A stretch of DNA of 54,728 nt from Oscillospiraceae bacterium. Lineage in GTDB: Bacteria; Bacillota; Clostridia; Oscillospirales; Ruminococcaceae. The number at the start of each line of letters is the position of its first letter. Within the stretch, counting starts at the first letter, position 1. Positions 11,138 to 53,281 of the stretch are shown here, one piece after another. Below the pieces are notes generated by a model, which was not told where the DNA came from, searched no databases, and saw only the letters and a list, made by a program, of their open reading frames with translations. The stretch is from assembly GCA_017466865.1 (NCBI GenBank), contig JAFTTI010000002.1:1-54728 (forward strand). The letters run 5' to 3'. Both the position numbers and the translations under genes were made by a program.

Positions 11138-11156
11138 AACCTATAAAATACTACGA

Positions 11157-11260
11157 TAAAACGAAAAGATTGCCCGTATTTTCTAGGAAACACGACGACG
11201 CCGTACTGGTGTACTGCTAGGAGTGTTGACGACGAAAGACGGGCGAGATTTCTCGTTTTA
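11157..11260. repeat. Structured intergenic element, copy A
   Basis: TAAAACGA (11157-11164) pairs with TCGTTTTA (11253-11260), and TTGCCCGT (11170-11177) pairs with ACGGGCGA (11239-11246), with AAA/TTT and a tandem G-A between them. The enclosed 61 nt holds GGAAACACGACGACG, GTAC-TGGT-GTAC and AGGAGTGTTGAC. Copy B at 24466-24570 shares this core almost exactly but has compensatory changes in the stems. Strand is uncertain because both directions end in T-runs. It could be a structured RNA, a terminator or a small non-autonomous mobile element. Confidence 0.75.
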
Positions 11261-11274
11261 TTACCCGACGAACT

Positions 11275-11304
11275 AAAAAAGACACTCATTATGAGTGTCT
11301 TTTT
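11275..11304 (-). terminator. spoVS terminator overlapping its stop codon
   Basis: GACACTCA and TGAGTGTC (8 bp, extended by A/T pairs) close a 3-nt loop that is the TAA stop of spoVS itself. T-runs flank both sides. Confidence 0.85.
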
Positions 11305-11546
11305 ATGCTTATTCTTATTCCGCTTTTCTCTTCGCCATTGATACTTACATCAAAAAAGTCTATATCCGATAAAAAGGGTATGTCTGTCATCTGTTTTGCA
11401 GCAGCTACGGCTTTGACCGCCTGATTTACAGCACCTGCACCTATTGCATCAAGTCTTACATCATAATCTTCTTCTAGAGATTTTACTATCGCACCCGATA
11501 ACGCTTTCACCTTTGAATATGACGATACCTTAAAAGTCTTTTCCAA
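11289..11546 (-). CDS. spoVS: Stage V sporulation protein S
   Basis: An 85-residue SpoVS (Alba-like fold). The conserved core AIGAGAVNQAVKAVAAAK (about 35-52) matches the family almost perfectly, as do the N-terminal FKVSSYSKVKALSGAI and the C-terminal INGEEKSGIRISI. Bacillus SpoVS is needed for progression to late sporulation and coat assembly. The length is normal. It lies 9 bp after ymdB, as in other Firmicutes, so the pair is probably cotranscribed. The last codons form the 5' arm of the terminator. Confidence 0.93.
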   Translation of the reverse strand: MEKTFKVSSYSKVKALSGAIVKSLEEDYDVRLDAIGAGAVNQAVKAVAAAKQMTDIPFLSDIDFFDVSINGEEKSGIRISIKRHS

Positions 11547-11555
11547 AAAATCACC

Positions 11556-12323
11556 CTATCTTACAATAAGTCTTTCAATGTTTCTTGCCTTGCCCGTTTT
11601 TTCATCAAAGTCTATTACAACGCCATTAAGGAATGGAGGTTCTTCCGATTCTTCAAATCTTACGGGATAATGAAGTCGCATTTTATCAACGGCAAGTTCA
11701 TTCTTAACACCTAAAACAGAATTTTCAGGGCCTGTCATTCCGACATCGGTTATATATGCGGTATGTCCGTCGATAATTGTTTCGTCTGCGGTCTGAACAT
11801 GTGTATGAGTTCCCATAACGGCGGTAACCCTGCCTTTTAAATACTGTCCCATACACTTCTTTTCAGCGGTAGCCTCTGCGTGAAAATCGACAAATATATT
11901 AGGGGTATCTATTTCTTTGAGGAGTCTGTCTGCCTCATCGAAAGGGTTTCCGATAGGTTCCATATAAACAACGCCCATAAGGTTTATTATTGCAACAGAA
12001 AATCTTCCCATATCGAGTGTTGTGACGCCTTTTCCTATAACTCCCTCAGGGTAGTTTGAAGGGCGCAGAACGGCATCGTTTTCTTCATAGATAGAAACAG
12101 ATTCTCTTCTTTTGAAAGAGTGGTTTCCCGTTGTGATAACATCGGCACCGTTTGAGAGTAAAAATTCAGCGCTCTGTTTTGTCATTCCGTTACCCTGTGC
12201 CGAATTTTCTCCGTTTACAACAGTTATATCAATACCTTTTTCCTTTTTGATTTTAAAGATGTTGGCCGCAAAAAAATCACACCCCGATTTTCCGACAACA
12301 TCACCGATAAAAAGCAGTTTCAT
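11556..12323 (-). CDS. ymdB: YmdB-family metallophosphoesterase
   Basis: A 255-residue calcineurin-like phosphodiesterase of the YmdB family. Metal-site motifs are FIGDVVGKSG (5-14, D8), VNGENSAQG (about 36-44, E39), TTGNHSF (about 64-70), VDFHAEATAEK (about 145-155) and GTHTHVQTAD (about 170-179). Bacillus YmdB hydrolyses 2',3'-cyclic mononucleotides and affects biofilm and motility decisions through RNA turnover. It precedes spoVS, the conserved arrangement. The start is 2 bp after the upstream membrane-protein stop with only a weak AAGAGA site, so it probably depends on translational coupling. Confidence 0.93.
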   Translation of the reverse strand: MKLLFIGDVVGKSGCDFFAANIFKIKKEKGIDITVVNGENSAQGNGMTKQSAEFLLSNGADVITTGNHSFKRRESVSIYEENDAVLRPSNYPEGVIGKGVTTLDMGRFSVAIINLMGVVYMEPIGNPFDEADRLLKEIDTPNIFVDFHAEATAEKKCMGQYLKGRVTAVMGTHTHVQTADETIIDGHTAYITDVGMTGPENSVLGVKNELAVDKMRLHYPVRFEESEEPPFLNGVVIDFDEKTGKARNIERLIVR

Positions 12324-12325
12324 TT

Positions 12326-12964
12326 TTATTTTTCTCTTTTCTTATTTAGTTTTATTGAAAGCACTATGGAAACAGCGCTCATTATTATTATAAGACCTGC
12401 GATAAGTCCTGTGCAGGCAGCGAAATATTCCTGCGGCAAGATTAAAACAACGGGGTCTGTATAAGGGTTCATCATCCAATAATCGTTTGAAAAAGCAATC
12501 TTATGGAACATAGTAAAGGTTTCTTCCCAGAAAAGAACTGCGGGAATACCCACAACTATGGGTAGGATGACCGCTATAAGTCCCCCGATTTTAAGGTATG
12601 TAAATTGTTTCATCTTTATGTTCACAACAGTTAAAACGATAGTTCCCAAAAGACAGACATACATAGCGATCTCTATTGCGACAAAAATTCTCTTTACCTC
12701 ATAAAAATGAATTCTTCCCTCTTCTGACTGGGGGGTGTTCTCAAATTCGAGTGTATCAGGGCCGAAAATGCTGTTATAACTTATAAGCGTATCATAATCG
12801 TTTCTTGCATCTTCTTCTGTGAAACCTGCCATTGCGGGAATAGATAATTTTTCAGACATAAAATAATAAAGCGGTCTGAAATTAAGAGAAATCACAATGG
12901 CGGATGTCATTATGAAAACCGCAAGTATAATTCCTGACAATACATTTTGTATTTTTTCTTTCAT
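12326..12964 (-). CDS. TIGR01906/DUF1461 membrane protein, Lit-like
   Basis: A 212-residue protein from an ATG (12964) behind a strong GGGAGG site; an upstream in-frame start at 13003 has no comparable site. It has an N-terminal helix, a long external loop, then three further helices (about 85-105, 115-140, 175-200). FEE-type aromatic and histidine residues (TMFHKIAF), W and DPVVLILPQEYF match the DUF1461/TIGR01906 family. That family includes Enterococcus Lit, an intramolecular transacylase that converts diacyl lipoproteins to the lyso form. Acyltransferase activity here is inferred from the family. It is encoded with ymdB-spoVS. Confidence 0.7.
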   Translation of the reverse strand: MKEKIQNVLSGIILAVFIMTSAIVISLNFRPLYYFMSEKLSIPAMAGFTEEDARNDYDTLISYNSIFGPDTLEFENTPQSEEGRIHFYEVKRIFVAIEIAMYVCLLGTIVLTVVNIKMKQFTYLKIGGLIAVILPIVVGIPAVLFWEETFTMFHKIAFSNDYWMMNPYTDPVVLILPQEYFAACTGLIAGLIIIMSAVSIVLSIKLNKKREK

Positions 12965-13001
12965 ATATTCCTCCCGGTATATAAAATAACAAGATATTTT
13001 C

Positions 13002-13035
13002 AAAAAAGAAAGGTATCGGGCAACAACCCGATACC
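13002..13035 (-). terminator. Terminator after the SprA-related gene
   Basis: GGTATCGGG and CCCGATACC form a perfect 9-bp stem with a 6-nt loop, followed on the minus strand by TTTCTTTTTT. Confidence 0.9.
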
Positions 13036-13047
13036 CTCTTTATCTTT

Positions 13048-13617
13048 TTAAGCAACTGTGTCAAGTGTCGAACCGACGGGTGCGCCTTTTCCGCCCTCGC
13101 CTACTCTGAATTTTTCAGAATTATCGCCTCTTGTGGTTGTTCTTGTCGTTCCGCCTGAAACAAAGGTTTCACCACACTCGGGGCATACGCCTGTGTGGAT
13201 TGTTACGGACTGAGAAACGATTTCTTTTCCTTCGCGTTCTGCTTTATCACGGTTTCTTACAACATGTTCCTGCTCGTGTCCCCTTACAGCTGCCATAGCA
13301 CTGGCTTTAGGGATTTTAGTAGGTGTCTGGAATGAAACGCCTGAGTCATCAGAACCATCGACATATCTTCTTTCCTTACAGGTCTGACATTCTTCCTCTT
13401 TGAACCCATCCTGAAATTTGCCGAGTTTCTTATTCCCGTTATTCTTCTCACCTTCGGCTGAAAGCTTTGATAAATTCCCTTCTTCGCGTGGCTCATTCCT
13501 GCCTATCTTGTTTACACCGTAAGCCATATAAGCCTTGTTATATGAAGAAACGGGGGCTGTAAACGGGTTTCTTTCAGCAAAAGATGCACCGCTGTTATAA
13601 ACTGAGCCTATTTCCAT
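13048..13617 (-). CDS. SprA-related zinc-metalloprotease-like protein
   Basis: A 189-residue protein from the ATG at 13617 (AAGGAGG site); a longer in-frame start adds 26 unlikely residues. The C-terminal half matches the SprA-related family: ECQTCKERRYVDGSDD, FQTPTKI, AVRGHEQEHVVRNRDKA with an HEQEH (HExxH) metalloprotease-type helix, and an HTGVCPECGETFVSGG zinc-ribbon-like segment. The N-terminal 70 residues are low complexity and hydrophilic. Proteolysis is suggested only by HExxH. It has its own promoter and terminator. The ribosome binding site lies in the loop of a CACAC/GTGTG mini-hairpin. Confidence 0.75.
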   Translation of the reverse strand: MEIGSVYNSGASFAERNPFTAPVSSYNKAYMAYGVNKIGRNEPREEGNLSKLSAEGEKNNGNKKLGKFQDGFKEEECQTCKERRYVDGSDDSGVSFQTPTKIPKASAMAAVRGHEQEHVVRNRDKAEREGKEIVSQSVTIHTGVCPECGETFVSGGTTRTTTRGDNSEKFRVGEGGKGAPVGSTLDTVA

Positions 13618-13666
13618 AAATCCACACCTCCTTGTGTGAAAAATAAAGACACTACTCCTTATACAG

Positions 13667-13695
13667 ATTATAACACCCTTTTTTCTATAAATCAA
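13667..13695 (-). promoter_or_regulatory. Promoter of the SprA-related gene
   Basis: Minus-strand TTGATT (13695-13690), 17-bp spacer, TATAAT (13672-13667), 50 bp upstream of the start. Divergent from the glycosyltransferase promoter. Confidence 0.75.
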
Positions 13696-13717
13696 TGGTA
13701 TATTTATAAAAAAATCA

Positions 13718-13746
13718 TTGTTTAATTTATTGCATTATGCTATAAT
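13718..13746 (+). promoter_or_regulatory. Promoter of the TPR glycosyltransferase gene
   Basis: TTGTTT (13718-13723), 17-bp spacer, TATAAT (13741-13746), 33 bp before the chosen ATG. Confidence 0.7.
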
Positions 13747-13778
13747 AATGGGGATAAAGAAATTTGCGGGGTGGATTT

Positions 13779-15449
13779 ATGCTTCTCACAATAGGAATGA
13801 TAATGAAAAACGAGGAAAAGAATCTTCCTCTTTGTTTAGAGGGAATAAAGCCGATTTTAGAAGCACTTCCTTCAGAACTCATTATTGTTGATACAGGCTC
13901 TACGGATAACTCTGTTGAAATCGCAAAGAAATATACCGACAATGTCAGATATTTTGAATGGTGCAACGATTTTTCAGCAGCAAGAAATGTATCTTTAGAG
14001 GGTGCAAAAGGCGAATGGTATATGTTCCTCGATGCCGATGAAATCTTTACAGACACAAGCGGAATAATAAACTTCTTCAAATCGGGTGAATATAAAAATT
14101 ATAATTCAGCAACTTATGTTGTAAGAAACTATAACGATTATGAAAAAACAGAATTTGCTGATTTTATAGCACCCCGTCTTACAAAGATTCTTCCCGGTAC
14201 AAAATTTGAAAGAGCTATCCATGAAGGACTTAACACCTACGGTTACCCTCTCAAAAACATAGATAACGCAATATGTGACCATTTCGGATATGTTATAACC
14301 GATGACACAGCCAAAAGCAAATGCGAAAGAAATCTTCCTCTTATTCTTAAAGAACACGAGAAAAACCCCGATGATTCAATGATTTATATGCAGCTTGTCG
14401 AGTCTTACAGAGGCGTTGATGAAGATGAAGCTCTGCGCTATTGCGATGAGGGTATAGAACTCAACAACAGAACACCCCATTATTCTGCACATATGATCTA
14501 TATCCATAAAGCAGACCTTCTTGCTAAAAGAAAAATGTATGAAGAAGCACTCGCTGTTATCGAAGCGCGTGAAGAATTCAAAAGACGCCCCGATGTTGAC
14601 AGCGTTGTCGGAATGGATATTGACTTTTACTATACAAAAGCATTTCTTTTTGCCAACCTCGAAAAAACTGCTGAGGCTATCCCTGCTTTCAGAGAATATT
14701 CGGCATTCTATAAAGAATACTGCATAAAAGGAAAATACCGCACTCCCGATACAATGCTCGGTGCTATAAGATATGCAAACCCCGATTCTCTTGCACACGC
14801 TATGATAACAGCCGTTAAATGCTGTATCAAAGAAAACAAGATGAATACCGCTCTTGATTTTCTTTCATCAGTTCCTGTTAAGGAAAAACTTTCCGATTCG
14901 CCATATATGGCGCTTTATATCAAAACTCTCATAGTTGTATGCAGAGGACTTAACAACTATTCTCAGATAAAAAGAATTTACAGTTCTCTTTCGGATGATA
15001 TAAAATATATCTTCTGTGGATATATCGGTTCTTATATGTCTGAACACGGCGCAGATTTTGCAAAAGAAGTTTTAAAACTTCATATCAGTTCTGATATAGA
15101 TAAGGCGCTTTCCATCTATATAAACTGTGAGGAAAAAGACCTTTCGGAAACAGAACTTGTAAATTCGCTCAAAGAGATAAAAACTGTTATGGAACGGAAC
15201 GAAGAAGTAAGAGCACTTGCAAAGTTCGCAGCAGACGGTATCAAGAAAAAGATTGATAGCAAACTCAAAGCACCCGCTACCGATGAACTTTCGGAACTTG
15301 CAAAAATCGTTAAGGGAAATATCAGAAATCTTATTTCAAACGGCAACATCGCAGAGGCAAAGCTCTATCTTTCACAGCTCAAAGCCTTATGCCCTATGGA
15401 TAACGAAATCACCGTTTTAGAAAATATGATAGAGAACAGTTTACATTAA
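13779..15449 (+). CDS. Family 2 glycosyltransferase with TPR-like C-terminus
   Basis: A 556-residue protein. Residues 1-110 are a GT-A glycosyltransferase domain: LTIGMIMKNEEKNLPLCL, IIVDTGSTDNSVEIAKK (the nucleotide-sugar aspartate), WCNDFSAARN and MFLDADE (DxD-like). From about residue 190 the rest is helical with TPR-like repeats (YMQLVESYRGVDEDEALRYC, LLAKRKMYEEALAVIE and others). This combination is common in clostridial SunS-like or TPR-glycosyltransferases. Acceptor and sugar are unknown. The ATG at 13779 has GGGGTGG upstream; an alternative TTG 15 bp earlier is less likely. Monocistronic, ending at a bidirectional terminator. Confidence 0.85.
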   Translation: MLLTIGMIMKNEEKNLPLCLEGIKPILEALPSELIIVDTGSTDNSVEIAKKYTDNVRYFEWCNDFSAARNVSLEGAKGEWYMFLDADEIFTDTSGIINFFKSGEYKNYNSATYVVRNYNDYEKTEFADFIAPRLTKILPGTKFERAIHEGLNTYGYPLKNIDNAICDHFGYVITDDTAKSKCERNLPLILKEHEKNPDDSMIYMQLVESYRGVDEDEALRYCDEGIELNNRTPHYSAHMIYIHKADLLAKRKMYEEALAVIEAREEFKRRPDVDSVVGMDIDFYYTKAFLFANLEKTAEAIPAFREYSAFYKEYCIKGKYRTPDTMLGAIRYANPDSLAHAMITAVKCCIKENKMNTALDFLSSVPVKEKLSDSPYMALYIKTLIVVCRGLNNYSQIKRIYSSLSDDIKYIFCGYIGSYMSEHGADFAKEVLKLHISSDIDKALSIYINCEEKDLSETELVNSLKEIKTVMERNEEVRALAKFAADGIKKKIDSKLKAPATDELSELAKIVKGNIRNLISNGNIAEAKLYLSQLKALCPMDNEITVLENMIENSLH

Positions 15450-15452
15450 GAT

Positions 15453-15478
15453 AAAGGACAACCTAAAGGTTGTCCTTT
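15453..15478. terminator. Bidirectional terminator between glycosyltransferase and eno
   Basis: AAAGGACAACC and GGTTGTCCTTT form an 11-bp stem with a 4-nt loop, with T/A runs both ways. The eno stop codon lies in the loop, so the last eno codons form one arm. Confidence 0.9.
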
Positions 15479-16698
15479 TCTATTAGAATAAGTCTGTTAT
15501 ATTTACAAGTACGCTCTGTTCTGCAGGGTGCACCTGTTTTTATGAACTCTGTTCCGAGGGCAACCGAAAGGTCGGCTATCGTTGTATCCTCGGTTTCGCC
15601 CGAACGATGCGACATTATAACCTTCATATTGTTCTTTTTAGCAAGAGATACGGCTTCTATCGTTTCTGTCAGAGTTCCTATCTGATTAGGCTTTATGAGA
15701 ACAGCATTTGCTGCATTCTTTTCTATCCCCTCTTTTATTCTTTTTGTATTGGTAACAAAAAGGTCGTCGCCGACAAGATTTATTCTGTCTCCGAGCCTTT
15801 CGGTCAAAGCCCTCCAGCCACGCCAGTCCTCTTCACCAACGCCGTCCTCAATAGATATTATCGGGTATTTATTGCAGAGTTTTTCCCAGTAAGAAACAAG
15901 TTCCGAATAGGTATAAACCGTTTTTCTTTTGGGAAGAGTGTATTTCCCGTTTTCTCCCGTCCATTCACTTGCGGCGGCATCAAGAGCTATCTTGACTGTA
16001 TCCAATGAATAACCCGCTTTGTCGATTGCCGAAAGAATGAACTCTATCGCCTCTTCATCGCTTGAAAGGTCAGGGGCATATCCTCCCTCATCACCGACAG
16101 TTGTAAGATAACCTTCTGCTTTTAAAATTTTTCCTAATGAATGATATATTTCGCAACCTATTCTTACCGCCTCGGAAAAACTTTCAGCGCCAACGGGAAC
16201 AATCATAAATTCCTGAATGTCAATATTATTCGATGCGTGTGCACCGCCGTTTAAAATATTCATCATAGGAACAGGAAAGCTTTTAGCCAGCGTTCCGCCG
16301 AGATAACGATATAATGGCATTCTCTTTTCGTTCGCAAAAGCTTTTGCTACCGCCATAGAAACAGCGAGAATAGCGTTAGCACCAAGTTTTGATTTGTTCT
16401 CTGTTCCGTCAAGGCGGCAAAGAACGCTATCAATTTCTTCCTGCTTGTCGGTTTTAAGAATGGCAAGCGCGGGAGATATAACGGTATTTATATTGCTTAC
16501 GGCATTTTTAACGCCCTTGCCGAAAAATCTTCCGTCGTTATCACGGAGTTCTATCGCCTCAAACTTTCCCGTTGATGCACCCGACGGAACGGAAGCTTCT
16601 CCACAGACTCCGTCTGTCAAAGTAACCCTTGCCATAACTGTCGGGTTTCCTCTTGAGTCGATTATTTCAAAACCTTCAACCTTTTCTATTTTCTGCAT
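15463..16698 (-). CDS. eno: Enolase
   Basis: A 411-residue enolase (2-phosphoglycerate to phosphoenolpyruvate), slightly shorter than the usual 425-435 residues. Hallmarks include DSRGNPTV (14-21), SVPSGASTG (about 37-45), the GDEGGYAP catalytic loop, metal ligands in ALDAAASE, SIEDG and VGDDLF, LIKPNQIGT with the catalytic lysine, and SHRSGETEDTTIADL near the C-terminus. Motifs are intact, but the sequence is somewhat divergent (DAAASE for the usual DCAASE, TGAPCRTERTCKYN near the end). The start is set by a GGAGG site embedded in a terminator-like hairpin, an unusual arrangement for a central glycolytic gene. Confidence 0.95.
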   Translation of the reverse strand: MQKIEKVEGFEIIDSRGNPTVMARVTLTDGVCGEASVPSGASTGKFEAIELRDNDGRFFGKGVKNAVSNINTVISPALAILKTDKQEEIDSVLCRLDGTENKSKLGANAILAVSMAVAKAFANEKRMPLYRYLGGTLAKSFPVPMMNILNGGAHASNNIDIQEFMIVPVGAESFSEAVRIGCEIYHSLGKILKAEGYLTTVGDEGGYAPDLSSDEEAIEFILSAIDKAGYSLDTVKIALDAAASEWTGENGKYTLPKRKTVYTYSELVSYWEKLCNKYPIISIEDGVGEEDWRGWRALTERLGDRINLVGDDLFVTNTKRIKEGIEKNAANAVLIKPNQIGTLTETIEAVSLAKKNNMKVIMSHRSGETEDTTIADLSVALGTEFIKTGAPCRTERTCKYNRLILIEKDNL

Positions 16699-16705
16699 AA
16701 AAAAT

Positions 16706-16737
16706 CCTCCATATACTTTTTTATGAGTATATGGAGG
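16706..16737 (-). promoter_or_regulatory. Terminator-like hairpin carrying the eno Shine-Dalgarno
   Basis: On the minus strand CCTCCATATAC pairs perfectly with GTATATGGAGG (11 bp, 10-nt loop) and is followed by ATTTTTTATG. GGAGG is the eno ribosome binding site, 7 nt from the ATG. The same element can terminate cheC transcription or hide the eno start. Confidence 0.85.
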
Positions 16738-16755
16738 TTTGTTTATTTTATTCAG

Positions 16756-17355
16756 TTATCTTCCGCGTTTTATTCTTTCCGCTATGGGAGCTACATATTT
16801 CTGCCCCGGAATGAATACTGCAAATTCCTTGGAACCGTTTTCTGTAATCTGTAAAACCGTATTTACGAAAACGAGTAACTCATCTGCATCTTTAGCAACA
16901 GATTCAGCGAGATTCTGACATCTTTCGGGGGTAGAAATATCAACAAGCATACCGAGCTGGTCTGAAAGTGCGTTACAGAACTGCGCCGATATTATGTTTG
17001 TCATTTCAAAGATAACAGATTCATCCATTTCATTAAGGTCTGCCCAGGAGGAAAGTTTCTTTTCATAATAGGTTGAAATAACTCTCTCTGCGAACTGAGC
17101 AGGGATAATATGGATAAGTTTTCCGTAAATATCGCCCGAAATATTTATAAGCATAGTGAGTGCACCGCCCGATATTGCAGAAAGAAGGCGTGTTGCATCC
17201 TCGAGTTTAATCAGCTTCACATCGGGGATTGATATGTCGGTGCCTGTATTTATCATTGTAGAAAGTGCGGTTGCAGCATTTCCCATTCCGACATCGGTAA
17301 GACCGCGGAGAAGGTCTGTCTGTTCAGCACTGAGAACTGTCATCATATCTGCCAT
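16756..17355 (-). CDS. cheC: CheC-family CheY-P phosphatase
   Basis: A 199-residue chemotaxis protein CheC homologue, which dephosphorylates CheY-P. Both internal active-site repeats are visible. The first is DVGMGNAATALSTMI (about 21-35), matching the E/D-x-G-x-G-N-A pattern. The second is ESVIFEMTNIISAQFCNALS (about 111-130), with the E-x-x-N pair of the phosphatase site. CheD, CheA and receptors are not in the window. It is followed by eno and preceded by a terminator, so it appears to be its own unit. Orphan CheC proteins also occur with non-chemotactic response regulators. Confidence 0.85.
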   Translation of the reverse strand: MADMMTVLSAEQTDLLRGLTDVGMGNAATALSTMINTGTDISIPDVKLIKLEDATRLLSAISGGALTMLINISGDIYGKLIHIIPAQFAERVISTYYEKKLSSWADLNEMDESVIFEMTNIISAQFCNALSDQLGMLVDISTPERCQNLAESVAKDADELLVFVNTVLQITENGSKEFAVFIPGQKYVAPIAERIKRGR

Positions 17356-17380
17356 AATATCAATCCTCTGAAATAAGTGT

Positions 17381-17419
17381 AAAAATATAGGGTTATCGGA
17401 AAATAATAACCGATAACCC
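17381..17419 (-). terminator. Terminator after mgsA
   Basis: GGGTTATCGG and CCGATAACCC form a perfect 10-bp stem with a 10-nt loop. The minus strand then reads TATATTTTT. Confidence 0.85.
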
Positions 17420-17450
17420 CATTTGTCGTTTTAAAGGGGTTCGCCTTGTT

Positions 17451-17855
17451 TTAGATGGGCGATTTTGCAATTTCACGCCAGTCAAGGTCACCTCTTTCGA
17501 GAGCATGGATAAGAGCCTCGGCTGTTGCGATATTTGTCGCAAGAGGAATGTTATGGACGTCGCAAAGACGGAGAAGATCCATTTCATTTGGTTCATGCGG
17601 TTTAGGAGAAATAGGGTCTCTGAAGAAGAGAAGAAGGTCTATTTCGTTGCAGGAGATTCTTGCAGCAATCTGTTCGCCGCCACCCTGACTTCCGCTTAAA
17701 TATTTCTGAATTTCAAGCCCTGTTGCCTGGGCAACCTGCTTTCCTGTAGTTGCTGTCGCACTGAGATTATGTCTGCTGAGTATTCCGCAGTATGCGATAC
17801 AGAACTGAACGAGTAATTCTTTCTTTGAGTCGTGCGCTATAAGTGCAATATTCAT
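17451..17855 (-). CDS. mgsA: Methylglyoxal synthase
   Basis: A 134-residue protein converting dihydroxyacetone phosphate to methylglyoxal plus phosphate, a bypass of lower glycolysis. Hallmarks are IALIAHDSKKELLV (start), the phosphate-binding ATATTGKQVAQATG (about 35-48), SGSQGGGEQIAARI (about 53-66), LLFFRDPISPKPHEPN (catalytic Asp, about 76-91) and PLATNIATAEAL (about 107-118). The ATG at 17855 has GAAAGGAC upstream and gives the normal family length. It lies 50 bp after minD; min genes and mgsA are neighbours in several clostridia. With the fucO-like dehydrogenase at 47.8 kb it could feed propanediol formation. Confidence 0.93.
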   Translation of the reverse strand: MNIALIAHDSKKELLVQFCIAYCGILSRHNLSATATTGKQVAQATGLEIQKYLSGSQGGGEQIAARISCNEIDLLLFFRDPISPKPHEPNEMDLLRLCDVHNIPLATNIATAEALIHALERGDLDWREIAKSPI

Positions 17856-17905
17856 AATCTTTTTCAGTCCTTTCGAATTAGAGTACCCTTTTTCTCTCAA
17901 TCAAA

Positions 17906-18646
17906 TTACGTTATTTTTACTGTCAAAGGAACATCTTCGCCCTTTATTCTTCTTGTGATAGCGTCAAACGCATGGAATGCATCTGACTGTGAAGGAATAG
18001 GAATACCCTTTCCTGTTGAAATTGTAACATTGTCATCATCGGGAATAACGCCTATAAGCTGAACGCCTACTGTGTCGATGATTTCGTCAAGGTCAGAAAC
18101 AAGTTCTTCACCAAAGATTTTTCTGTTCATCTTATTGATGATAAGGCGCTGTTTTTTATTCTGTCTTTTATAGAATTCGTCAGACATGAGTCTTCCGTCA
18201 CGAACACAGATTGGGTCTGGTGTTGTAACGATGAGGATAAGGTCTGAGTTTGCGACAACATCGAAAACGCTTTCGCTGATGCCTGCTGATGTATCTATAA
18301 TGATATAATCATAATATTTTCTCATTGATTCGCAGATTTCTTTGATCTGGTCTGCGTCGAGTGTTGCATAGGGGTCTTCAGGTGCACAGACGATTGAAAG
18401 GTTCTGAGCCATTTTAATCTGTGTCGAAGCGGCAAGTATATCGCATTTCCCTGCGAGAACGTCACCTAAGTCGTGTTGTATTATGTCTTTAACGCCAAGC
18501 ATAATATCAAGGCATCTGAGACCAAAGTCAAGTTCAATAATGAGTGTTCTGCTTCCCTGTTTTGCAAGAGCATAACCCATTCCTGAACAGATAGAAGATT
18601 TGCCTGTTCCTCCCTTACCGGAAGTTACAGCGATAACGGTAGCCAT
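17906..18646 (-). CDS. minD: MinD-like ParA/MinD ATPase without a C-terminal membrane helix
   Basis: A 246-residue deviant Walker A ATPase. SGKGGTGKSS (9-18) carries the signature lysine, IIELDFGLRCLDIMLG is switch-like, IIIDTSAGI is Walker B, and LIINKMNR is present. Sequence and gene order (followed by mgsA) favour MinD, the activator of the MinC septum inhibitor. However, it ends at EDVPLTVKIT, about 20 residues short of canonical MinD, and lacks the amphipathic membrane-targeting helix. No minC or minE is nearby. The ATG at 18646 has AAAGGAGAG. A FleN/FlhG-like or other ParA-family role is possible. Confidence 0.8.
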   Translation of the reverse strand: MATVIAVTSGKGGTGKSSICSGMGYALAKQGSRTLIIELDFGLRCLDIMLGVKDIIQHDLGDVLAGKCDILAASTQIKMAQNLSIVCAPEDPYATLDADQIKEICESMRKYYDYIIIDTSAGISESVFDVVANSDLILIVTTPDPICVRDGRLMSDEFYKRQNKKQRLIINKMNRKIFGEELVSDLDEIIDTVGVQLIGVIPDDDNVTISTGKGIPIPSQSDAFHAFDAITRRIKGEDVPLTVKIT

Positions 18647-18705
18647 ACGGATTCTCTCCTTTCGGGTAACTAATACCTGCCAATAAGCATAGTGTACCAT
18701 ATACT

Positions 18706-18733
18706 ATTTTACCATAAAATCATTATTTGTCAA
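18706..18733 (-). promoter_or_regulatory. Promoter of minD-mgsA
   Basis: Minus-strand TTGACA (18733-18728), 16-bp spacer, TAAAAT (18711-18706), 60 bp upstream of the minD start. Confidence 0.65.
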
Positions 18734-18872
18734 AGCAAAATGAGCCTCACAAACAAAAATTGTAGACTTAACAACATTTTCCCCATTTGCCTTGTGCAAA
18801 TTTCACAATCTGGTTTCGGGAATAATTTTCCACTTATAAATTCTGTAACAAAATATCCCTATTTTATACAAA

Positions 18873-18905
18873 AAACCACGATATGCAAAAAACATATCGT
18901 GGTTT
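18873..18905 (-). terminator. gdhA terminator
   Basis: AAACCACGATATG and CATATCGTGGTTT form a perfect 13-bp stem with a 7-nt loop, followed by TTTTGTATAA on the minus strand. The rest of 18647-18872 holds only the minD promoter and A/T-rich sequence. Confidence 0.9.
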
Positions 18906-18931
18906 TGTAATTCCTTTTAAAAGGCTATGTA

Positions 18932-20284
18932 TTAAACAACGCCCTGAGCCTTCATTGCTTCTGCAACCTTTAAGAAACCTGCGATGTTAGCACCTGCTAC
19001 GAGGTCATCACCGAGGCCGTATTCGTTAGCAGCCTTGATTGAAGCGTCGAAGATGTTCTTCATGATGCCCTTGAGCTTAGCATCAACTTCTTCTGCTGTC
19101 CAGCTGTAACGCATTGAGTTCTGTGACATTTCGAGACCTGAAACAGCAACACCACCAGCGTTAACTGCCTTTGAAGGAGCAACGATAACACCCTTGCTCT
19201 TGAGGAATGCAACTGCTTCGTTTGTTGTAGGCATATTTGAAACTTCTACATAGTACTTAACGCCGTTAGCAACGATCTTTTCTGCTTCTTCCATACCAAC
19301 TTCGTTCTGAGTAGCACAAGGCATGATGATGTCAGCCTTAACGCCCCAGGGCTTTTCACCCTTATGGAATTCAGCACCGAACTTATCAGCATAGTCTTCA
19401 GCTCTGTTACGGCATGAAGCACGCATTTCAAGCATGAATTCAATCTTTTCGGGTGTGTTGATGCCATCCTTATCATAGATGTATCCGTCAGGACCTGAGA
19501 TTGTTACAACCTTACCGCCGAGTTCTGTAACCTTGAGAGCAACGCCCCATGCAACGTTACCGAAACCTGAAACAGCAACTGTCTTGCCCTTGATGTCATC
19601 GCCGAAATGCTTGAGCATTTCAACTGTGTAGTAAACAGCACCGAAACCTGTTGCTTCGGGACGGATAAGAGAACCGCCGTAAGGAATACCCTTACCTGTG
19701 AGAACTCCTGTGAATTCGTTTCTGAGTCTCTTATACTGACCGAACATATAACCGATTTCACGAGCACCAACACCGATGTCACCTGCGGGAACGTCGAGGT
19801 CAGCACCGATATGCTTTGAAAGTTCTGTCATAAAGCTCTGGCAGAAAGCCATAACTTCTCTGTCAGACTTGCCCTGAGGGTCGAAGTCTGAACCACCCTT
19901 ACCACCGCCCATGGGGAGTGATGTGAGTGAGTTCTTGAAAATCTGTTCAAATCCGAGGAACTTGATAATTCCAAGGTAAACTGAAGGATGGAAACGGAGA
20001 CCGCCCTTGTAAGGACCGATAGCAGAGTTGAACTGAACTCTGAAACCTCTGTTTACCTGAACCTTGCCGTTGTCATCAACCCAGGGAACACGGAAAACGA
20101 TCTGTCTTTCGGGTTCAACGATTCTTTCAAGAACACCTGCTTCAACGAGGTCGGGTCTCTTTTCGATAACGGGCTGGATTGTTTCGAGAACTTCTGTTAC
20201 TGTCTGAATGAATTCAGGTTCGCCTGCGTTTCTTTTCTTGACTGTTTCAAGAAGTTCGCTTAAATACTGGTTTGTGATTGCCAT
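18932..20284 (-). CDS. gdhA: NADP-type glutamate dehydrogenase
   Basis: A 450-residue hexameric glutamate dehydrogenase that assimilates ammonia with 2-oxoglutarate. Hallmarks: VQVNRGFRVQFNSAIGPYKG, SLPMGGGKGGSDFDP (catalytic lysines), DVPAGDIGVGAREIGYMFG, GKGIPYGGSLIRPEATGFG (all typical of the bacterial NADP enzyme), and the GFGNVAWG dinucleotide fold. The ATG at 20284 has AAGGAGG and gives the family length exactly. It has a consensus promoter and its own terminator, so it is monocistronic. Confidence 0.96.
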   Translation of the reverse strand: MAITNQYLSELLETVKKRNAGEPEFIQTVTEVLETIQPVIEKRPDLVEAGVLERIVEPERQIVFRVPWVDDNGKVQVNRGFRVQFNSAIGPYKGGLRFHPSVYLGIIKFLGFEQIFKNSLTSLPMGGGKGGSDFDPQGKSDREVMAFCQSFMTELSKHIGADLDVPAGDIGVGAREIGYMFGQYKRLRNEFTGVLTGKGIPYGGSLIRPEATGFGAVYYTVEMLKHFGDDIKGKTVAVSGFGNVAWGVALKVTELGGKVVTISGPDGYIYDKDGINTPEKIEFMLEMRASCRNRAEDYADKFGAEFHKGEKPWGVKADIIMPCATQNEVGMEEAEKIVANGVKYYVEVSNMPTTNEAVAFLKSKGVIVAPSKAVNAGGVAVSGLEMSQNSMRYSWTAEEVDAKLKGIMKNIFDASIKAANEYGLGDDLVAGANIAGFLKVAEAMKAQGVV

Positions 20285-20357
20285 TGGAATATTCCTCCTT
20301 AAAATTCGTTTATCAAAGTAAAACGACAAAATAAGTCGCTCTTTTACCATATTCTAA

Positions 20358-20386
20358 ATTATAGACTATGAGGCGTAATTTGTCAA
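20358..20386 (-). promoter_or_regulatory. Consensus promoter of gdhA
   Basis: Minus-strand TTGACA (20386-20381), 17-bp spacer, TATAAT (20363-20358): both hexamers perfect. The remainder of 20387-20619 is A/T-rich. I see no gene in it, only a weak CCCG/CGGG hairpin at about 20572-20587. Confidence 0.9.
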
Positions 20387-20619
20387 ATAATTTTTTGCAA
20401 TTTTTCGTCATTTTTCTTGCAGATTTATACTATTGCATATTTTTATCGCCGACATTGTCTTTTTCATAGTCAAATATAACAAAACCGACAAAATCCGCCG
20501 ATTTCAAAAATGCAATTTTCCCTTCATTTTGAAAGATATATAAAAATATATTGCAAATAACGAAAGAAAATTCCCGTGTAGTCGCGGGAGAACATATCGC
20601 AATGAAATTTTGTCGCAAA

Positions 20620-20650
20620 AAGAAAAATCCCCTTTTCAAAAGAGGATTTT
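20620..20650 (-). terminator. Terminator after the yjfB-like gene
   Basis: On the minus strand AAAATCCTCTTTT pairs with AAAAGGGGATTTT around a very short loop and is followed by TCTTTTT. Confidence 0.75.
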
Positions 20651-20658
20651 CTTTTTTC

Positions 20659-20844
20659 TTATGCACGGACATCGAGAAGATGACCGAATGATGCAGCGCC
20701 GTCAGTCATTGTCTGAACAAGTTGTTCTGCCTGAGCGGATTCTGTTTCAAGAGCTTTATCAAGCATTTTGAGCGAGATATTCTGCATAAGTTCAGTCTGC
20801 TTCATATATGAGGCAGTGTTTGCAATGCTCATGGTTAAATCCAT
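20659..20844 (-). CDS. YjfB-like putative motility protein
   Basis: A 61-residue helical protein matching the small YjfB motility family: an N-terminal MDLTMSIANTASYMKQTELM, then an amphipathic NISLKMLDKALETESAQAEQL and a short tail. Family members are encoded in motility regulons of Firmicutes but lack a defined function. Strong support comes from its own promoter, a perfect flagellar-type sigma factor site 50 bp upstream (20894-20920). GAAAGGAGCG lies before the ATG. It is flanked by a terminator and the convergent end of gdhA regulatory DNA. Confidence 0.75.
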   Translation of the reverse strand: MDLTMSIANTASYMKQTELMQNISLKMLDKALETESAQAEQLVQTMTDGAASFGHLLDVRA

Positions 20845-20893
20845 AAACGACGCTCCTTTCGTTTTAGTAGAGGAAAACCCTCTCTATAAGAAT

Positions 20894-20920
20894 ATATCGG
20901 CATATTTTTTATAAAGTTTA
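20894..20920 (-). promoter_or_regulatory. Sigma-28 (SigD/FliA) type promoter of yjfB-like gene
   Basis: Minus-strand TAAA (20920-20917), 15-bp spacer, GCCGATAT (20901-20894): a full match to the SigD consensus. The -35 overlaps the fruK stop codon. Confidence 0.8.
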
Positions 20921-21820
20921 GAAGTTTTCAAAAAGTTTTTCTATCATTTCTTTTTTCGCAAGGTCAGAAGAAAATGCCGTCGCACCGCCCGAGGCTGTTC
21001 CGAGTTTTAAGGCATAGTCAGAATTCTCCCCTCTTTCGATACCTGCTAAAAATCCTGCAAGCATAGAATCCCCCGCACCGACAGAGTTTATAACTTCTCC
21101 TTTTAGTGCTTCACAGAAATGGCTTTCTCCGTTTTCGTCTATAAGCAAAGCGCCATTTTCAGCCATTGAAACAATGACATTTTCTGCACCCATACTCTGC
21201 AACTTCCTTGCATATATTTCAGCAGTTTCGGGAGTGTTTATATCTACCCCGAAAATCTCACCGAGTTCGATATGATTAGGCTTTATAAGATATGGTTTTA
21301 AGGGAAGGACTTTTTTTAAAAGTTCACCCGAAGCGTCAACGACGAATTTTATTCCCTTACCCGAAAATCTTTCCATAATGATTTCATAGATATTATCGGG
21401 AACGGATTTCGGAACGCTTCCTGCTAAAACGAGAACATCCCCCTCTTTTAAAACAGAAAGGCTATCTAAAAATTTATTGAGATATTCCTCTGAAACAACG
21501 GGGCCTATACCATTTATCTCTGTTTCTTCATCTGATTTTATCTTTATATTTATTCTCGAAAATCCATCGGGAAGTTCTGTGAAAAGTGTTTCAATGCCAA
21601 ATTTTTGCATTTCTTCTTTTAATGCCTTGCCCGTAAAACCTGCTATAAATCCCGTTGCAACGGATTTTACATCAAGTTCGGATAAAACTCTTGAAACATT
21701 TATCCCTTTTCCTCCAAAGAAAACCTGCTCTTTTGAAGTTCTGTTTACAGTTCCCGTTTTTATATCCTTAACGCCCACAACATAGTCAATAGCGGGGTTA
21801 AGGGTTACTGTATAGATCAT
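20918..21820 (-). CDS. fruK: 1-phosphofructokinase
   Basis: A 300-residue PfkB-family sugar kinase of the FruK/LacC branch. The start IYTVTLNPAIDYVV is the branch signature, GGKGINVSRVLSELD (about 36-50) is the first PfkB motif, and INSVGAGDSMLAGF (about 244-257) holds the catalytic aspartate and anion hole. It would phosphorylate fructose 1-phosphate to the 1,6-bisphosphate. No fructose PTS genes flank it. The start overlaps the stop of the upstream lipoprotein gene (ATGA) with GGAGG inside that gene, indicating translational coupling. Tagatose-6-phosphate kinase is the main alternative. Confidence 0.85.
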   Translation of the reverse strand: MIYTVTLNPAIDYVVGVKDIKTGTVNRTSKEQVFFGGKGINVSRVLSELDVKSVATGFIAGFTGKALKEEMQKFGIETLFTELPDGFSRINIKIKSDEETEINGIGPVVSEEYLNKFLDSLSVLKEGDVLVLAGSVPKSVPDNIYEIIMERFSGKGIKFVVDASGELLKKVLPLKPYLIKPNHIELGEIFGVDINTPETAEIYARKLQSMGAENVIVSMAENGALLIDENGESHFCEALKGEVINSVGAGDSMLAGFLAGIERGENSDYALKLGTASGGATAFSSDLAKKEMIEKLFENF

Positions 21821-22677
21821 AGATAAAATCCTCCGCCTTGTCTGAGTGAAATAAGTCGATACCCTGCGGGAACTGAAACAAGTTCATCAGGAACATCTGC
21901 GCTGTAATCAAGAACCTTGCATAATGTCTTGCCGTCGCTTACATATACAAGTATTTCTCCGCCCTCGTGATAATAGAATTTTATCGTTCCGTTATTGTCT
22001 TTTACAGCATCATATTCATAGGTAACGCCGTTTATTTTTTCCTTGCCCGATGTAAACTCTGCGTTTTCGTATTTCCCCGCAGAAAATCCCTTTATCGCAT
22101 CGGGAATGGTTATCGGCAAATCAGCCTCGTTCTGTTCTATGGCAAGTTTGGTATCGTGCATTAAAAGATAAGCCTTGTCGCCATTTATAACTGTTCCGAG
22201 CCTTGATGAACCGGGGTTGAACTGCATTCCGCTTACACCGTTTTTTATTCCTATTGTAACAGTAAGGTCAATGACAGTTCCATCCTCCATTTTATAGGGG
22301 AGTGAAACTTTCGCCCATATAGGTTTTTTGCCCGAACCAAAAACATTCCTATATATGTTCATAGTCCGTTCTCCCGCTGAAAATCCCTGCTTTTTTGTAG
22401 TAGTCGTTGTGGTAGCAACAGTCGTTGTAGTTACGGGAGTAGTAGTGGTTTCGGGAGTGGTTGTTGTAACAGTAGTCGTTGTGACTGTTGTGGTAGTTAT
22501 GGGAGTAGTTGTTGTTTCGGGAGTAGTAGTGGTAACTATAGGGGTTGTTGTGGTAACTCTCGCTGTTGTAACAGGTATTTCGTCTTCTGCTTTTTTCTTC
22601 ATTCCCTGCAAAAGAGTGCAACCCGTAAGCATAAGCGATAAAATCACCGATAACGCTATTACTTTTCCGTTTTTCAA
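21817..22677 (-). CDS. Lipoprotein with Thr-rich linker
   Basis: A 286-residue secreted lipoprotein. It has an N-terminal basic/hydrophobic signal with lipobox LTGC (C20). Residues about 38-95 are a low-complexity linker of Thr, Pro, Glu and Val (TTTTPETTTTP type repeats), encoded by ACA/ACT/ACC runs. The C-terminal 190 residues form a globular beta-rich domain (IWAKVSLPYKMEDGTVIDL, NGTIKFYYHEGGEILVYVSDG) without a recognised family, possibly an extracellular binding domain. The start codon is TTG behind GGGGGAGAGG. It is translationally coupled to fruK. A second, truncated lipoprotein with Thr-rich linker lies at the right edge. Confidence 0.75.
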   Translation of the reverse strand: MKNGKVIALSVILSLMLTGCTLLQGMKKKAEDEIPVTTARVTTTTPIVTTTTPETTTTPITTTTVTTTTVTTTTPETTTTPVTTTTVATTTTTTKKQGFSAGERTMNIYRNVFGSGKKPIWAKVSLPYKMEDGTVIDLTVTIGIKNGVSGMQFNPGSSRLGTVINGDKAYLLMHDTKLAIEQNEADLPITIPDAIKGFSAGKYENAEFTSGKEKINGVTYEYDAVKDNNGTIKFYYHEGGEILVYVSDGKTLCKVLDYSADVPDELVSVPAGYRLISLRQGGGFYL

Positions 22678-22708
22678 AGCCTCTCCCCCTTATAATCTAT
22701 TTTAAATA

Positions 22709-22737
22709 AGTATATCATAATGACAGATTTTTTTCAA
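22709..22737 (-). promoter_or_regulatory. Promoter of lipoprotein-fruK
   Basis: Minus-strand TTGAAA (22737-22732), 17-bp spacer, TATACT (22714-22709). Confidence 0.75.
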
Positions 22738-22744
22738 CATATTG

Positions 22745-22773
22745 TTGCAATCGTTTTCTTTTTGTTGTAAAAT
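22745..22773 (+). promoter_or_regulatory. Promoter of the NCS2 permease gene
   Basis: TTGCAA (22745-22750), 17-bp spacer, TAAAAT (22768-22773). Only about 40 nt of leader follow, too short for a purine riboswitch. Confidence 0.65.
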
Positions 22774-22820
22774 GCATATTAAGGGCGTAACGCTCAATCT
22801 ATAAGAAATGGGGTATTCTT

Positions 22821-24260
22821 TTGGACAAGTTTTTCAAACTGAAAGAAAACAACACAACTGTCAGAACTGAAATTGTTGCCGGTCTGACAACATTCTTCGC
22901 GATGGCTTACATCGTATTCGTAAATCCCGATCAGGTTGCAGCAGGTGGTGCGGCTGGTTGGCTCGCAGGTGCAGGTGCAGACGCTACTGCTCTCGGCAGA
23001 ATCTGGAACGCAGTTTACATCGCTTCAATCCTCGCAGCTATTGTCGGAACTCTCCTCTATGCATTCTATGCAAAGCTCCCCTTTGCTCAGGCTTGCGGAA
23101 TGGGACTCAACGCATTCTTCTGCACAACATTCGTTTCAGGCGCATATTTCGCAGGAACAGACCTCATAACAGGTTATCATTCAGGACTTGTTATCATCTT
23201 TATTTCAGGTGTTGTATTCCTCATCCTTTCAGTAACGGGCCTTCGTGAATACATAGCAAAAGCAATGCCCGACTGTCTTAAAAAGTCAATACCCGCAGGT
23301 ATCGGTCTTTTTATCGCTTACATCGGATTCCAGAATGTAGGTATCATTCAGGCTAATCAGTATACACTCACACAGTTTGTTGACATAAACGGTGCAAGAC
23401 TCGCAGGAGATATGGCTCCCGTTATTCCCGCTCTCGTAGCACTTTTAGGTTTCATCATCATCGCTGTTCTCGGAAGACTCAAAGTTAAGGGTAATGTTAT
23501 TATAGGTATTCTCGCTTCAACAGTTATCTATTATCTTTTCACATGGCAGCTTCCTTCACTCGACCTTTCAGCTATTGGTCAGTCATTCAAGGATTTCGGC
23601 GAAGTAGGTTTCTTAGGTCTTTTCAATGGTGATGCCTGGAAAAACGCATTCTCGGGCGCACACATCGGCGGAATTTTCAATGCTATTATGCTTATTATAA
23701 CATTCTGCCTCGTTGATATGTTCGATACATTAGGAACACTTTACGGAACAGCTTCAGAAGCAGATATGCTCGACGAAAACGGCGACCCCATAAGAGTAGG
23801 CAAATCTATGATGGCAGACTCAATTGCAACAGTTACAGGTTCGCTTTTCGGAACATCAACATGTACAACTTTCGTTGAATCAGCATCAGGCGTTGCAGCA
23901 GGAGGAAGAACAGGTCTTGCTTCTCTCGTAACTTCAATCTGCTTCGCTGTATGTCTTTTCTTCAGCCCACTTGCAAGTATCATTCCTTCAGCAGCAACAG
24001 CACCCGCACTCATCTATGTAGGCGTTCTTATGCTCAAGAACTTTGCAAAGGTTGATATGGAAGATTTAGGCTCTGCAGTTCCTGCATTTTTAACTCTCGT
24101 TATGATGCCTCTTACATACTCTATCTCAAATGGTATCGGCATCGGTGCTATCGCTTACACACTCATCGCTCTCGCAACAAAGAAATACACAAAGAAGGAC
24201 ATCACTGTTACAGTTATAGCAGCACTCTTCATCATTCGTTTCATCTTTGTTACAATGTAG
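22821..24260 (+). CDS. NCS2-family (AzgA-type) purine permease
   Basis: A 479-residue membrane transporter with about 13 hydrophobic segments. The AzgA/PbuG-type signature starts with TEIVAGLTTFFAMAYIVFVNP (about 16-36). Then come GMGLNAFF, the conserved FCLVDMFDTLGTLYGTA region with its charged residues, GTSTCTTFVESASGVAAGGRTGL, and MPLTYSISNGIGIG. It should import adenine, guanine or hypoxanthine by proton symport. The specific base is not evident. The start codon is TTG with GGGG about 10 nt upstream; no in-frame ATG is nearby. The stop TAG is the first element of a downstream 95-bp repeat. Confidence 0.9.
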   Translation: MDKFFKLKENNTTVRTEIVAGLTTFFAMAYIVFVNPDQVAAGGAAGWLAGAGADATALGRIWNAVYIASILAAIVGTLLYAFYAKLPFAQACGMGLNAFFCTTFVSGAYFAGTDLITGYHSGLVIIFISGVVFLILSVTGLREYIAKAMPDCLKKSIPAGIGLFIAYIGFQNVGIIQANQYTLTQFVDINGARLAGDMAPVIPALVALLGFIIIAVLGRLKVKGNVIIGILASTVIYYLFTWQLPSLDLSAIGQSFKDFGEVGFLGLFNGDAWKNAFSGAHIGGIFNAIMLIITFCLVDMFDTLGTLYGTASEADMLDENGDPIRVGKSMMADSIATVTGSLFGTSTCTTFVESASGVAAGGRTGLASLVTSICFAVCLFFSPLASIIPSAATAPALIYVGVLMLKNFAKVDMEDLGSAVPAFLTLVMMPLTYSISNGIGIGAIAYTLIALATKKYTKKDITVTVIAALFIIRFIFVTM

Positions 24261-24369
24261 TGGGGCAGCCCCCACGGGCAGTTCGTCACGAACTTTGTTA
24301 AGTAAATAAAAAAGAGCTCGGGAATGACAAATTGTTGTTTCCGAGTTTTCATTTTGGTGCGTGGTCGCA
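24258..24369 (+). repeat. Modular 95-bp element after the NCS2 permease
   Basis: Begins at the NCS2 stop (TGTAG, as at argS). The hairpin GTGGGG-CAGC-CCCCAC is followed by the ACGAACTTTGTTAAGTAAAT linker and an A-run, then CTCGGGAA...TTTCCGAG with TTTTCATTTT as terminator. About 95 bp after the start the sequence GGTGCGTGGTCGCA resembles the opening of argS unit 2 (GGCGCGTGGTCGCG), suggesting a decayed second unit. Confidence 0.8.
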
Positions 24370-24394
24370 TAAAATAAAAAGACGAAATAAAAAT

Positions 24395-24418
24395 AATCCC
24401 CCACACCTGTGGGGGATT
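24395..24418. terminator. Terminator between NCS2 and glgP
   Basis: AATCCCCCACA and TGTGGGGGATT form a perfect 11-bp stem on a 2-nt apex. T-rich sequence follows on both strands, best on the minus strand for glgP. Confidence 0.8.
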
Positions 24419-24465
24419 TCTTGTTTTAAAAAATGAATAGACTGTGCTTTTCCCGAAATCAAGCG

Positions 24466-24570
24466 TAAAAACAAAAATATCACCCGTATTTCAAGGAAAC
24501 ACGACGACGCTGTACTGGTGTACTGCGAGGAGTGTTGACAAAGAAAGACGGGTGAGATTTCTTGTTTTTA
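24466..24570. repeat. Structured intergenic element, copy B
   Basis: TAAAAACAA (24466-24474) pairs with TTGTTTTTA (24562-24570), and TCACCCGT (24480-24487) pairs with ACGGGTGA (24548-24555). The core matches copy A (11157-11260) almost base for base, including GGAAACACGACGACG, GTACTGGTGTAC and AGGAGTGTTGAC. Stem differences are compensatory. Its right end includes the glgP stop codon, so it abuts that gene's 3' end. Confidence 0.75.
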
Positions 24571-39710: not shown

Positions 39711-39781
39711 CCAAAGGCGAGCCGCCTTTGGCATATCGTAATTAAAAAACAAGGGTATCGAGTTTTTAGCTCGGTACCCTT
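39711..39781. repeat. Short variant of the modular element, after spo0A
   Basis: Opens with a perfect 9-bp hairpin, CCAAAGGCG-AGC-CGCCTTTGG. Then come CATATCGTAATT with an A-run, and a 12-bp hairpin AAGGGTATCGAG/CTCGGTACCCTT. The same second hairpin ends the 46.1-kb copy. On the minus strand it is followed by GTTTTTTAATT, making a good secF terminator, so it serves the convergent genes. Confidence 0.8.
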
Positions 39782-49024: not shown

Positions 49025-49108
49025 TAAAAATTGTGTAAAATCTTCAAAAAATTAAAAGTGAAAGACGGCCGAGCTTTAAAATCATTAAAAACGATATTCC
49101 GAGCGAGT

Positions 49109-53274: not shown

Positions 53275-53281
53275 TGTAATT

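Follow-up and report, generated by a model that had tools for sequence, protein, structure and literature searches.

Contig JAFTTI010000002.1 of an Oscillospiraceae bacterium (54,728 nt, analysed at its full length and called the window here) contains members of a dispersed family of hairpins. Their arms covary, their pairing is biased towards one strand and their apex holds a conserved core; in a relative, hairpins of this family have inserted in a transposon-like manner. These features suggest that the family probably consists of widespread fold-back, non-autonomous mobile repeats that carry a conserved RNA (or single-stranded DNA) core. The alternatives weighed below overlap with this explanation, and their probabilities do not sum to one. 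The nearest known kinds of element are miniature inverted-repeat transposable elements (MITEs), the palindromes known as repetitive extragenic palindromic (REP) sequences and bacterial interspersed mosaic elements (BIMEs), and repeats of the bcr or BOX type.

Two copies form a 103-nt direct repeat in the window (11157-11259 and 24466-24568, 83% identical), in agreement with the initial annotation. The differences between their stems that it had described as preserving pairing, ACGA/TCGT versus ACAA/TTGT and TTGCCCGT/ACGGGCGA versus TCACCCGT/ACGGGTGA, are present and do keep the pairs. On the + strand, both copies folded into hairpins of ~105 nt with energies of -43.9 kcal/mol for copy 1 and -46.3 kcal/mol for copy 2, compared to means of -23.3 and -22.4 kcal/mol for dinucleotide shuffles (z-scores of -6.69 and -7.88, respectively; 0 of 200 shuffles folded as well for either copy). 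The - strand folds of copies 1 and 2 were also good but weaker (z-scores of -5.2 and -7.6). The folding of the window hairpins is beyond chance.

The core had been taken for an unpaired stretch and is instead a stem interrupted by two internal loops that mirror each other. Each loop is 2x3 in size. The usual form is C-[AA/GCA]-G; copies of the window's genus have C-[UA/GAC]-G or a close variant. The two loops occur in opposite orientations below a short tip stem, with ~10 positions between the invariant G-C pairs. Copy 1 has UA/GAC at both loops; copy 2 has AA/AAA and GA/GAC. A binder with two-fold symmetry would call for such a mirror layout. In an alignment of 22 copies from the genus (MAFFT; alignment A1, drawn from 30 loci with fragments and near-duplicate neighbours excluded), 16 of 27 pairs showed compensatory changes. 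We also examined a 45-copy alignment that covers relatives' genomes, the genus, metagenome-assembled genomes (MAGs) with the exact core and one viral contig. This alignment was fitted to a covariance model, which favours the structure. Of its cells, 93.5% were paired versus 66.0% after shuffling, and both-side changes occurred in 334 cells versus 103.7 in shuffles (0 of 500 shuffles reached the observed number) and no more than 101 in slid alignments. At the level of pairs, 24 of 28 had both-side changes; the shuffled mean was 20.1, and 5 of 500 shuffles matched the observed value. The two invariant G-C pairs were kept in 45/45 copies, and some rows of the distant alignment fit the loop letters only partly (for example L089 and L070, and the second hits of L218 and L215). 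Both alignments show covariation that backs one secondary structure, as a structured RNA does.

The kinds of mismatch in the outer stem suggest which strand is folded. Among 490 outer-stem cells from 35 copies (L165 was dropped, its anchor not being found), the + strand showed 365 Watson-Crick pairs, 48 G.U, 1 A.C, 54 G.A and 22 other combinations. Five rows (L043, L123, L151, L152 and L163) seem shifted by one base and contain 16 of the 22 other cells; a recount without them (420 cells) gave 41 G.U and 1 A.C. Since unselected mutation should yield G.U and A.C mismatches about equally, the + strand appears to be the one whose fold is kept. The bias was weaker outside the genus, where 41 matches had 219 G.U on + folds versus 116 on - folds and the + fold was the richer in G.U in 30 of the 41 (four reverse-strand rows of the corresponding alignment, A2, were left out of this count and of the gene-context count given below). 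RNA is the simplest reading of the strand bias.

The initial annotation had reported two copies and had proposed counting them genome-wide and building covariance models. The family proved to be far larger. With a broad model, 14 copies were counted in the window's own genome (G000, ~75% complete), 28 in G002, 29 in G003, 5 in G004, 7 in G005 and none in G001; these genus genomes are drafts, several of them incomplete. Even the window holds a third, 5'-truncated copy, whose right flank is, by eye, that of the intact G002 copy L160; it was missed by the covariance model (CM) R2 at E<=1 in the window. Genus copies measure about 105-115 nt, and the 22 full copies align nearly without gaps at 110-116 nt. 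By eye, the 36 listed copies of G000 and G002 are modular: their outer arms are similar, often TAAAACGAAAAGA and its complement, and several second-stem sequences and three apex types occur in mixed combinations. Sites also vary between genomes. Downstream (3') of glgP, the gene for glycogen phosphorylase, G000 and G002 carry the variant seen in the window and, after it, a remnant of a second variant. G003 has this second variant. The element is absent at this site in G005, where a terminator-like hairpin lies (by eye), and in G001, where a different gene lies; the gene end could not be read in the G004 piece. Downstream (3') of argS, copy 1 is common to G000 and G003 (tblastn), and it was not found within 520 nt of argS in G002, G001, G005 or G004. 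None of these four loci is a clean empty site, as their downstream sequences, compared by eye, all differ.

Covariance models found covarying homologues across many genera. Model R1 (22 copies), at E<=0.001, matched 16 of 148 family genomes and 22 of 295 order genomes; 38 of the 41 matched loci are fold-back hairpins of ~85-220 nt, and the other three (L069, L080, L083) formed no single long hairpin in the wider stretch. Stems and ends of these matches diverge widely from those of the window copies, apart from some common short stretches such as CGTATTTC, and the apex is of the same kind. Model R2, at E<=1e-4, matched at least 88 of 391 class genomes and at least 19 of 398 phylum genomes, largely with different stems; both are lower bounds from nine scored candidates per genome, in samples that overlap and include G000, and all covariance-model E-values come from a short calibration. 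In most distant R2 matches, the loop letters are recognisable as CAAGG[C/A]..GCAG..tip..CAAG..AACGCAG. The exact core pattern matched 12 contigs in a collection of named genomes, all from the ruminant uncultured Oscillospiraceae MAGs RGIG6418 and RGIG8503 and from two Bacillota MAGs, whose four contigs have the same core in longer hairpins. From their isolate names, we take the two Bacillota MAGs to be of termite-gut origin.

Among a further 45 loci, 7 have a second match nearby in the opposite orientation. Five of these inverted pairs were folded, and each gave one outer stem around both hairpins, with one folded core per strand; at another locus, L097, three close matches lie on the same strand. 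The recurrence of the core on different ends could mean that one RNA core, recognised by a Clostridia-wide factor, was adopted by independent miniature transposon families and spread or kept by core swapping, an idea that we put forward only tentatively. If so, the elements with two inverted cores would give one core to transcripts from either side, and this built-in RNA signal would let the host tolerate insertions, for instance through control over how the inserted RNA is transcribed or degraded. A core copy also lies at 4898-4980 (-), near the end of the IMG/VR contig L131 (5101 bases), which the database labels viral. A phage origin was rejected: one search pattern had no match in viral contigs and a second matched only L131.

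Signs of mobility come from the relative G040. This genome contains two sets of copies with different ends, in which 25 of 27 apical nucleotides are common to both. Copies of the first set span 157 bp between TAGC and GCTA, with TA on both sides in 6/6 copies. Those of the second set start with GAACCTGTCTTCAC and span 161 bp in 14/14 full copies read, and 13 of the 14 have matching TNA target duplications (TTA, TAA or TCA), which shows that this set entered the DNA as a miniature transposon. Its end pattern had 115 and 96 matches on the two strands versus 8 and 15 for the control. G040 also has dispersed short copies of 46-47 bp (L174-L187) that comprise little beyond the two transposon ends and have no core; their duplications match in 10 of 16 read. 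The initial annotation had offered a functional RNA and a small mobile element as alternatives. Both received support: the covariation and the one-strand G.U bias fit a single-stranded fold, and the dispersed copies, the target duplications of the relative and the occupied and unoccupied orthologous sites fit a mobile element. The choice between them was not supported.

Plain miniature transposons with a functionless core, inherited from an ancestor and kept paired by arm-to-arm repair, would account for the many near-identical G040 copies, and the modular stem and apex combinations in the genus fit gene conversion. Repair of one arm against the other would give no excess of G.U over A.C on a single strand (48 to 1), nor would it keep non-Watson-Crick loop letters in most copies, in many genomes and on different stems, and we regard this explanation as improbable. 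A DNA element that acts as a single strand, its hairpin being a strand-specific recombinase substrate like attC or REP, so that DNA and not RNA is under folding selection, is unlikely in our judgement, if less so. It is consistent with the one-strand G.U bias, with the inverted pairs in 7/45 loci and with the fixed orientation by stop codons described below, in which the folded strand is antisense to the gene; integron attC sites have this same layout, with fixed orientation beside stop codons and the folded strand antisense to the gene. The TNA duplications of G040 point instead to double-strand cutting. The RAYT-type Y1 transposase domain PF01797, matched in 18 of 38 genomes searched (16 above cut-off), was found in one of the six genus genomes and not in the other five, including G000 and G002 with their 14 and 28 copies. 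Furthermore, the window copies are flanked by housekeeping genes and not by cassettes.

In the window's genus, many of the copies are placed at gene ends in a fixed orientation. Placement was counted with a simple, crude caller of open reading frames (ORFs) for 22 of 28 G002 copies and 13 of 14 G000 copies. The right-hand gene is on the - strand for 19 of the 21 G002 copies that have one and for 10 of 13 G000 copies. In 14/22 (G002) and 6/13 (G000) copies, a - strand gene has its stop codon between -13 and +5 nt relative to the right end of the model, and no + strand gene stops at the left end in the same way (0/35). Neighbouring genes are convergent at 13/22 and 7/13 copies, respectively. We infer that selection on the folded strand in transcripts, whether favouring or opposing it, lies behind this placement. 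Outside the genus, the right-hand gene is on the - strand for 22 of the 37 matches that have one, a weak trend that is not used here as support.

Alternatively, the element could be a transcription terminator or 3'-end structure of adjacent genes, a hairpin whose A-rich left and U-rich right arms stop or stabilise transcripts in one or both directions, with copy number owed to gene conversion and not to transposition. The right end lies at a stop codon in 20/35 copies, convergent gene ends are frequent and both window copies have U-rich 3' arms. A simple terminator was rejected, because separate terminator-like hairpins are present at both window loci, where the element itself was not called a terminator on the + strand. 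Termination would not require the conserved two-loop core, the site after glgP in G005 has a plain terminator-like hairpin in place of the element, and the G040 copies have no placement bias. A terminator role could overlap with a mobile repeat that carries a folded core; as an explanation of its own, it is doubtful.

We favour fold-back mobile repeats with a conserved core, for which the following mechanism can be proposed. The DNA element is one long imperfect palindrome whose + strand folds into a hairpin, with a stem that varies by copy and a length nearly fixed in the genus. A transposase would act in trans on the element ends. The core would work in single-stranded form, most likely as RNA after transcription of the repeat, and might bind a host factor or be processed. 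Action in this form would explain why pairing survives, on one strand only, by way of compensatory and G.U substitutions, and why elements with different ends carry the same core. In the window's genus, copies may have been retained at gene ends, beside the stop codon and antisense to the gene; there, read-through transcripts that enter the gene from behind could be blocked or destabilised by the hairpin.

Several observations weigh against this proposal. The pair-level covariation control is close (20.1 versus 24 of 28 pairs). The - fold is the richer in G.U in 9 of the 41 matches outside the genus, with 2 equal, and single-stranded DNA also favours G.T over A.C, so the strand bias is no proof of RNA. 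In the genus, target duplications are unreadable although the ends are palindromic, and the arms vary among copies, unlike those of a classical MITE. In G040, the TA around the 157-bp set is constant and may therefore be part of the element's own ends. The short copies disperse without a core, so movement in G040 seems possible without one, unless loss of the core followed insertion. No transposase was linked to any hairpin ends, an autonomous partner having been sought only via the G040 end pattern. The placement counts rest on the crude ORF caller, and in G040 the bias was not seen (right-hand gene on the - strand in 8/20). Lastly, a + strand transcript is not obvious: on that strand, each of the two window copies has terminator-like sites upstream of it, and promoter-like sites (0 and 1 found) are no more frequent than expected by chance.

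The family was also compared with known ones. At gathering score, an Rfam 15 scan of the window matched only a T-box elsewhere, in line with the earlier statement that the element resembles no nameable RNA family, and 17 relative loci matched only two tRNAs, both in L035; a known Rfam family was ruled out on these grounds. The region of copy 1 alone, at a loose cut-off, gave a best E-value of 0.13, far below gathering. In the open-access literature, we recognised no paper as describing the hairpin family; the core could be among the candidate structured microbiome RNAs of PMC8040213. Like MITEs, the elements are short, multi-copy, dispersed and, as judged without a formal coding-potential test, non-coding, and in G040 they have inverted-repeat ends, target duplications and many near-identical copies per genome. 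They differ from MITEs in being palindromic over their full length and in having a strand-specific core that occurs on more than one kind of end; moreover, the arms of copies in the window's genus covary and their duplications cannot be read. Pneumococcal BOX and RUP are likewise modular hairpin repeats, and mobilisation in trans has been proposed for RUP; this likeness is one of description and not of sequence. Integron attC sites have an end consensus, the R-box GTTRRRY, and lie in arrays of gene cassettes. They were rejected, as the right ends here are mostly GTTTTA or GTTTTTA (by eye) and the window neighbours are argS, spoVS, glgP and a permease gene, not cassettes.

REP sequences, as characterised in the relevant passages of PMC3733652, are palindromes near gene 3' ends and between convergent genes. 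The present hairpins resemble REP/BIME elements, as outlined there, in being palindromic, dispersed, often at gene 3' ends or between convergent genes and sometimes in inverted pairs (PMC3733652). They differ in length: REPs measure 20-40 bp in that account (PMC3733652) and the hairpins ~105 nt and up. For GTAG- and CGTC-tagged repeats, these passages name several phyla, Firmicutes not among them (PMC3733652); GTAG and CGTC tags were not searched for systematically here. REP sequences moved by a Y1 transposase were rejected, PF01797 not being found in five of six genus genomes, including the copy-rich G002. The bcr repeats of the Bacillus cereus group, as summarised in PMC3446304, combine bcr1-bcr3, called MITE-like, with bcr10 and bcr18, for which a nature as functional RNA elements was predicted; in two strains, mRNAs were found to contain 84 of 165 and 62 of 155 repeats (PMC3446304). 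They share an intergenic location and a mixed MITE-like and RNA-like nature with the hairpins (PMC3446304), again by description and not by sequence.

Small palindromic repeats are common, and a strand-specific covarying core spread across genera and different ends was absent from the Rfam 15 scans and from the open-access literature searched. Should the core prove to be an RNA signal, it would add a candidate RNA family that reaches tens of copies in some gut genomes. It would also offer a handle on why interspersed palindromes of bacteria sit at gene ends, and on whether such palindromes act as selfish DNA, as RNA regulators or in both ways.

Table 1. Hairpin copies in the window, their core loops and an overlapping stop codon
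Feature	Position	Strand	Basis
Copy 1, full hairpin, in the interval between argS (+) and spoVS (-)	11151..11266	+	CM R2, 92.1 bits, E 1.4e-21 in the window; neighbours by Pfam
Copy 2, full hairpin, in the interval between a xanthine/uracil-type permease gene (+) and the glycogen phosphorylase gene (-)	24461..24575	+	CM R2, 97.1 bits, E 6.4e-23; neighbours by Pfam
Copy 1 loop 1, 5' side TAGGA, opposite 11228-11233	11184..11188	+	sequence and alignment structures
Copy 1 loop 1, 3' side GACGAC	11228..11233	+	sequence and alignment structures
Copy 1 loop 2, 5' side GACGACG, the loop 1 motif on the other arm	11194..11200	+	sequence and alignment structures
Copy 1 loop 2, 3' side TAGGA	11218..11222	+	sequence and alignment structures
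Copy 2 loop 1, 5' side AAGG, opposite 24537-24542	24493..24496	+	sequence and alignment structures
Copy 2 loop 1, 3' side GACAAA	24537..24542	+	sequence and alignment structures
Copy 2 loop 2, 5' side GACGACG	24503..24509	+	sequence and alignment structures
Copy 2 loop 2, 3' side GAGGA	24527..24531	+	sequence and alignment structures
TAA stop codon of glgP (glycogen phosphorylase), within the right arm of copy 2	24568..24570	-	sequence and locus comparison
Third copy, 3' half only (GATATTCCGAGCGAGTTTAACG...TTTCTCGTTTTA)	~49093..49143	+	repeat family D6 and sequence

Other repeats were also noted. In family D2 (10934-11000, 11029-11095, 24247-24313 and 45848-45914 in the window), a short G+C hairpin precedes a TTCGTTACGAAGTTTGTT-like stretch and an A-rich one. 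Of the four copies, three start at or near a + strand stop codon (10947, 24260 and 45863), in sense and thus opposite to the hairpin element, and one copy duplicates the final codons of argS. In half elements of the hairpin family (L022, L029 and L005), the 5' half of the hairpin ends near the core loops, and several of them run into a D2-like G+C hairpin. Pieces of this kind also lie to the left of full copies at L126 and L128.

Elsewhere in the window, a tandem 95-nt repeat (45864-46053, 99% identical) and related 66-nt repeats (39716-39781 and 46054-46119), similarly built as GGCGAGCCG.CTTTGGCA...CTCGG, are found near gene ends. The direct repeats D1 (22402-22551; reference length of 48 nt, spacing of 12-18 nt) overlap the ORF at 21817-22677 (-) and are probably a low-complexity stretch of its protein. 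The T-box leader (Rfam RF00230, 118 bits) at 53020-53275 (-) lies upstream of the ORF at 50630-52957, the product of which matches AMP-binding enzyme, cupin and HTH domains and would be an unusual T-box target if the two belong together.

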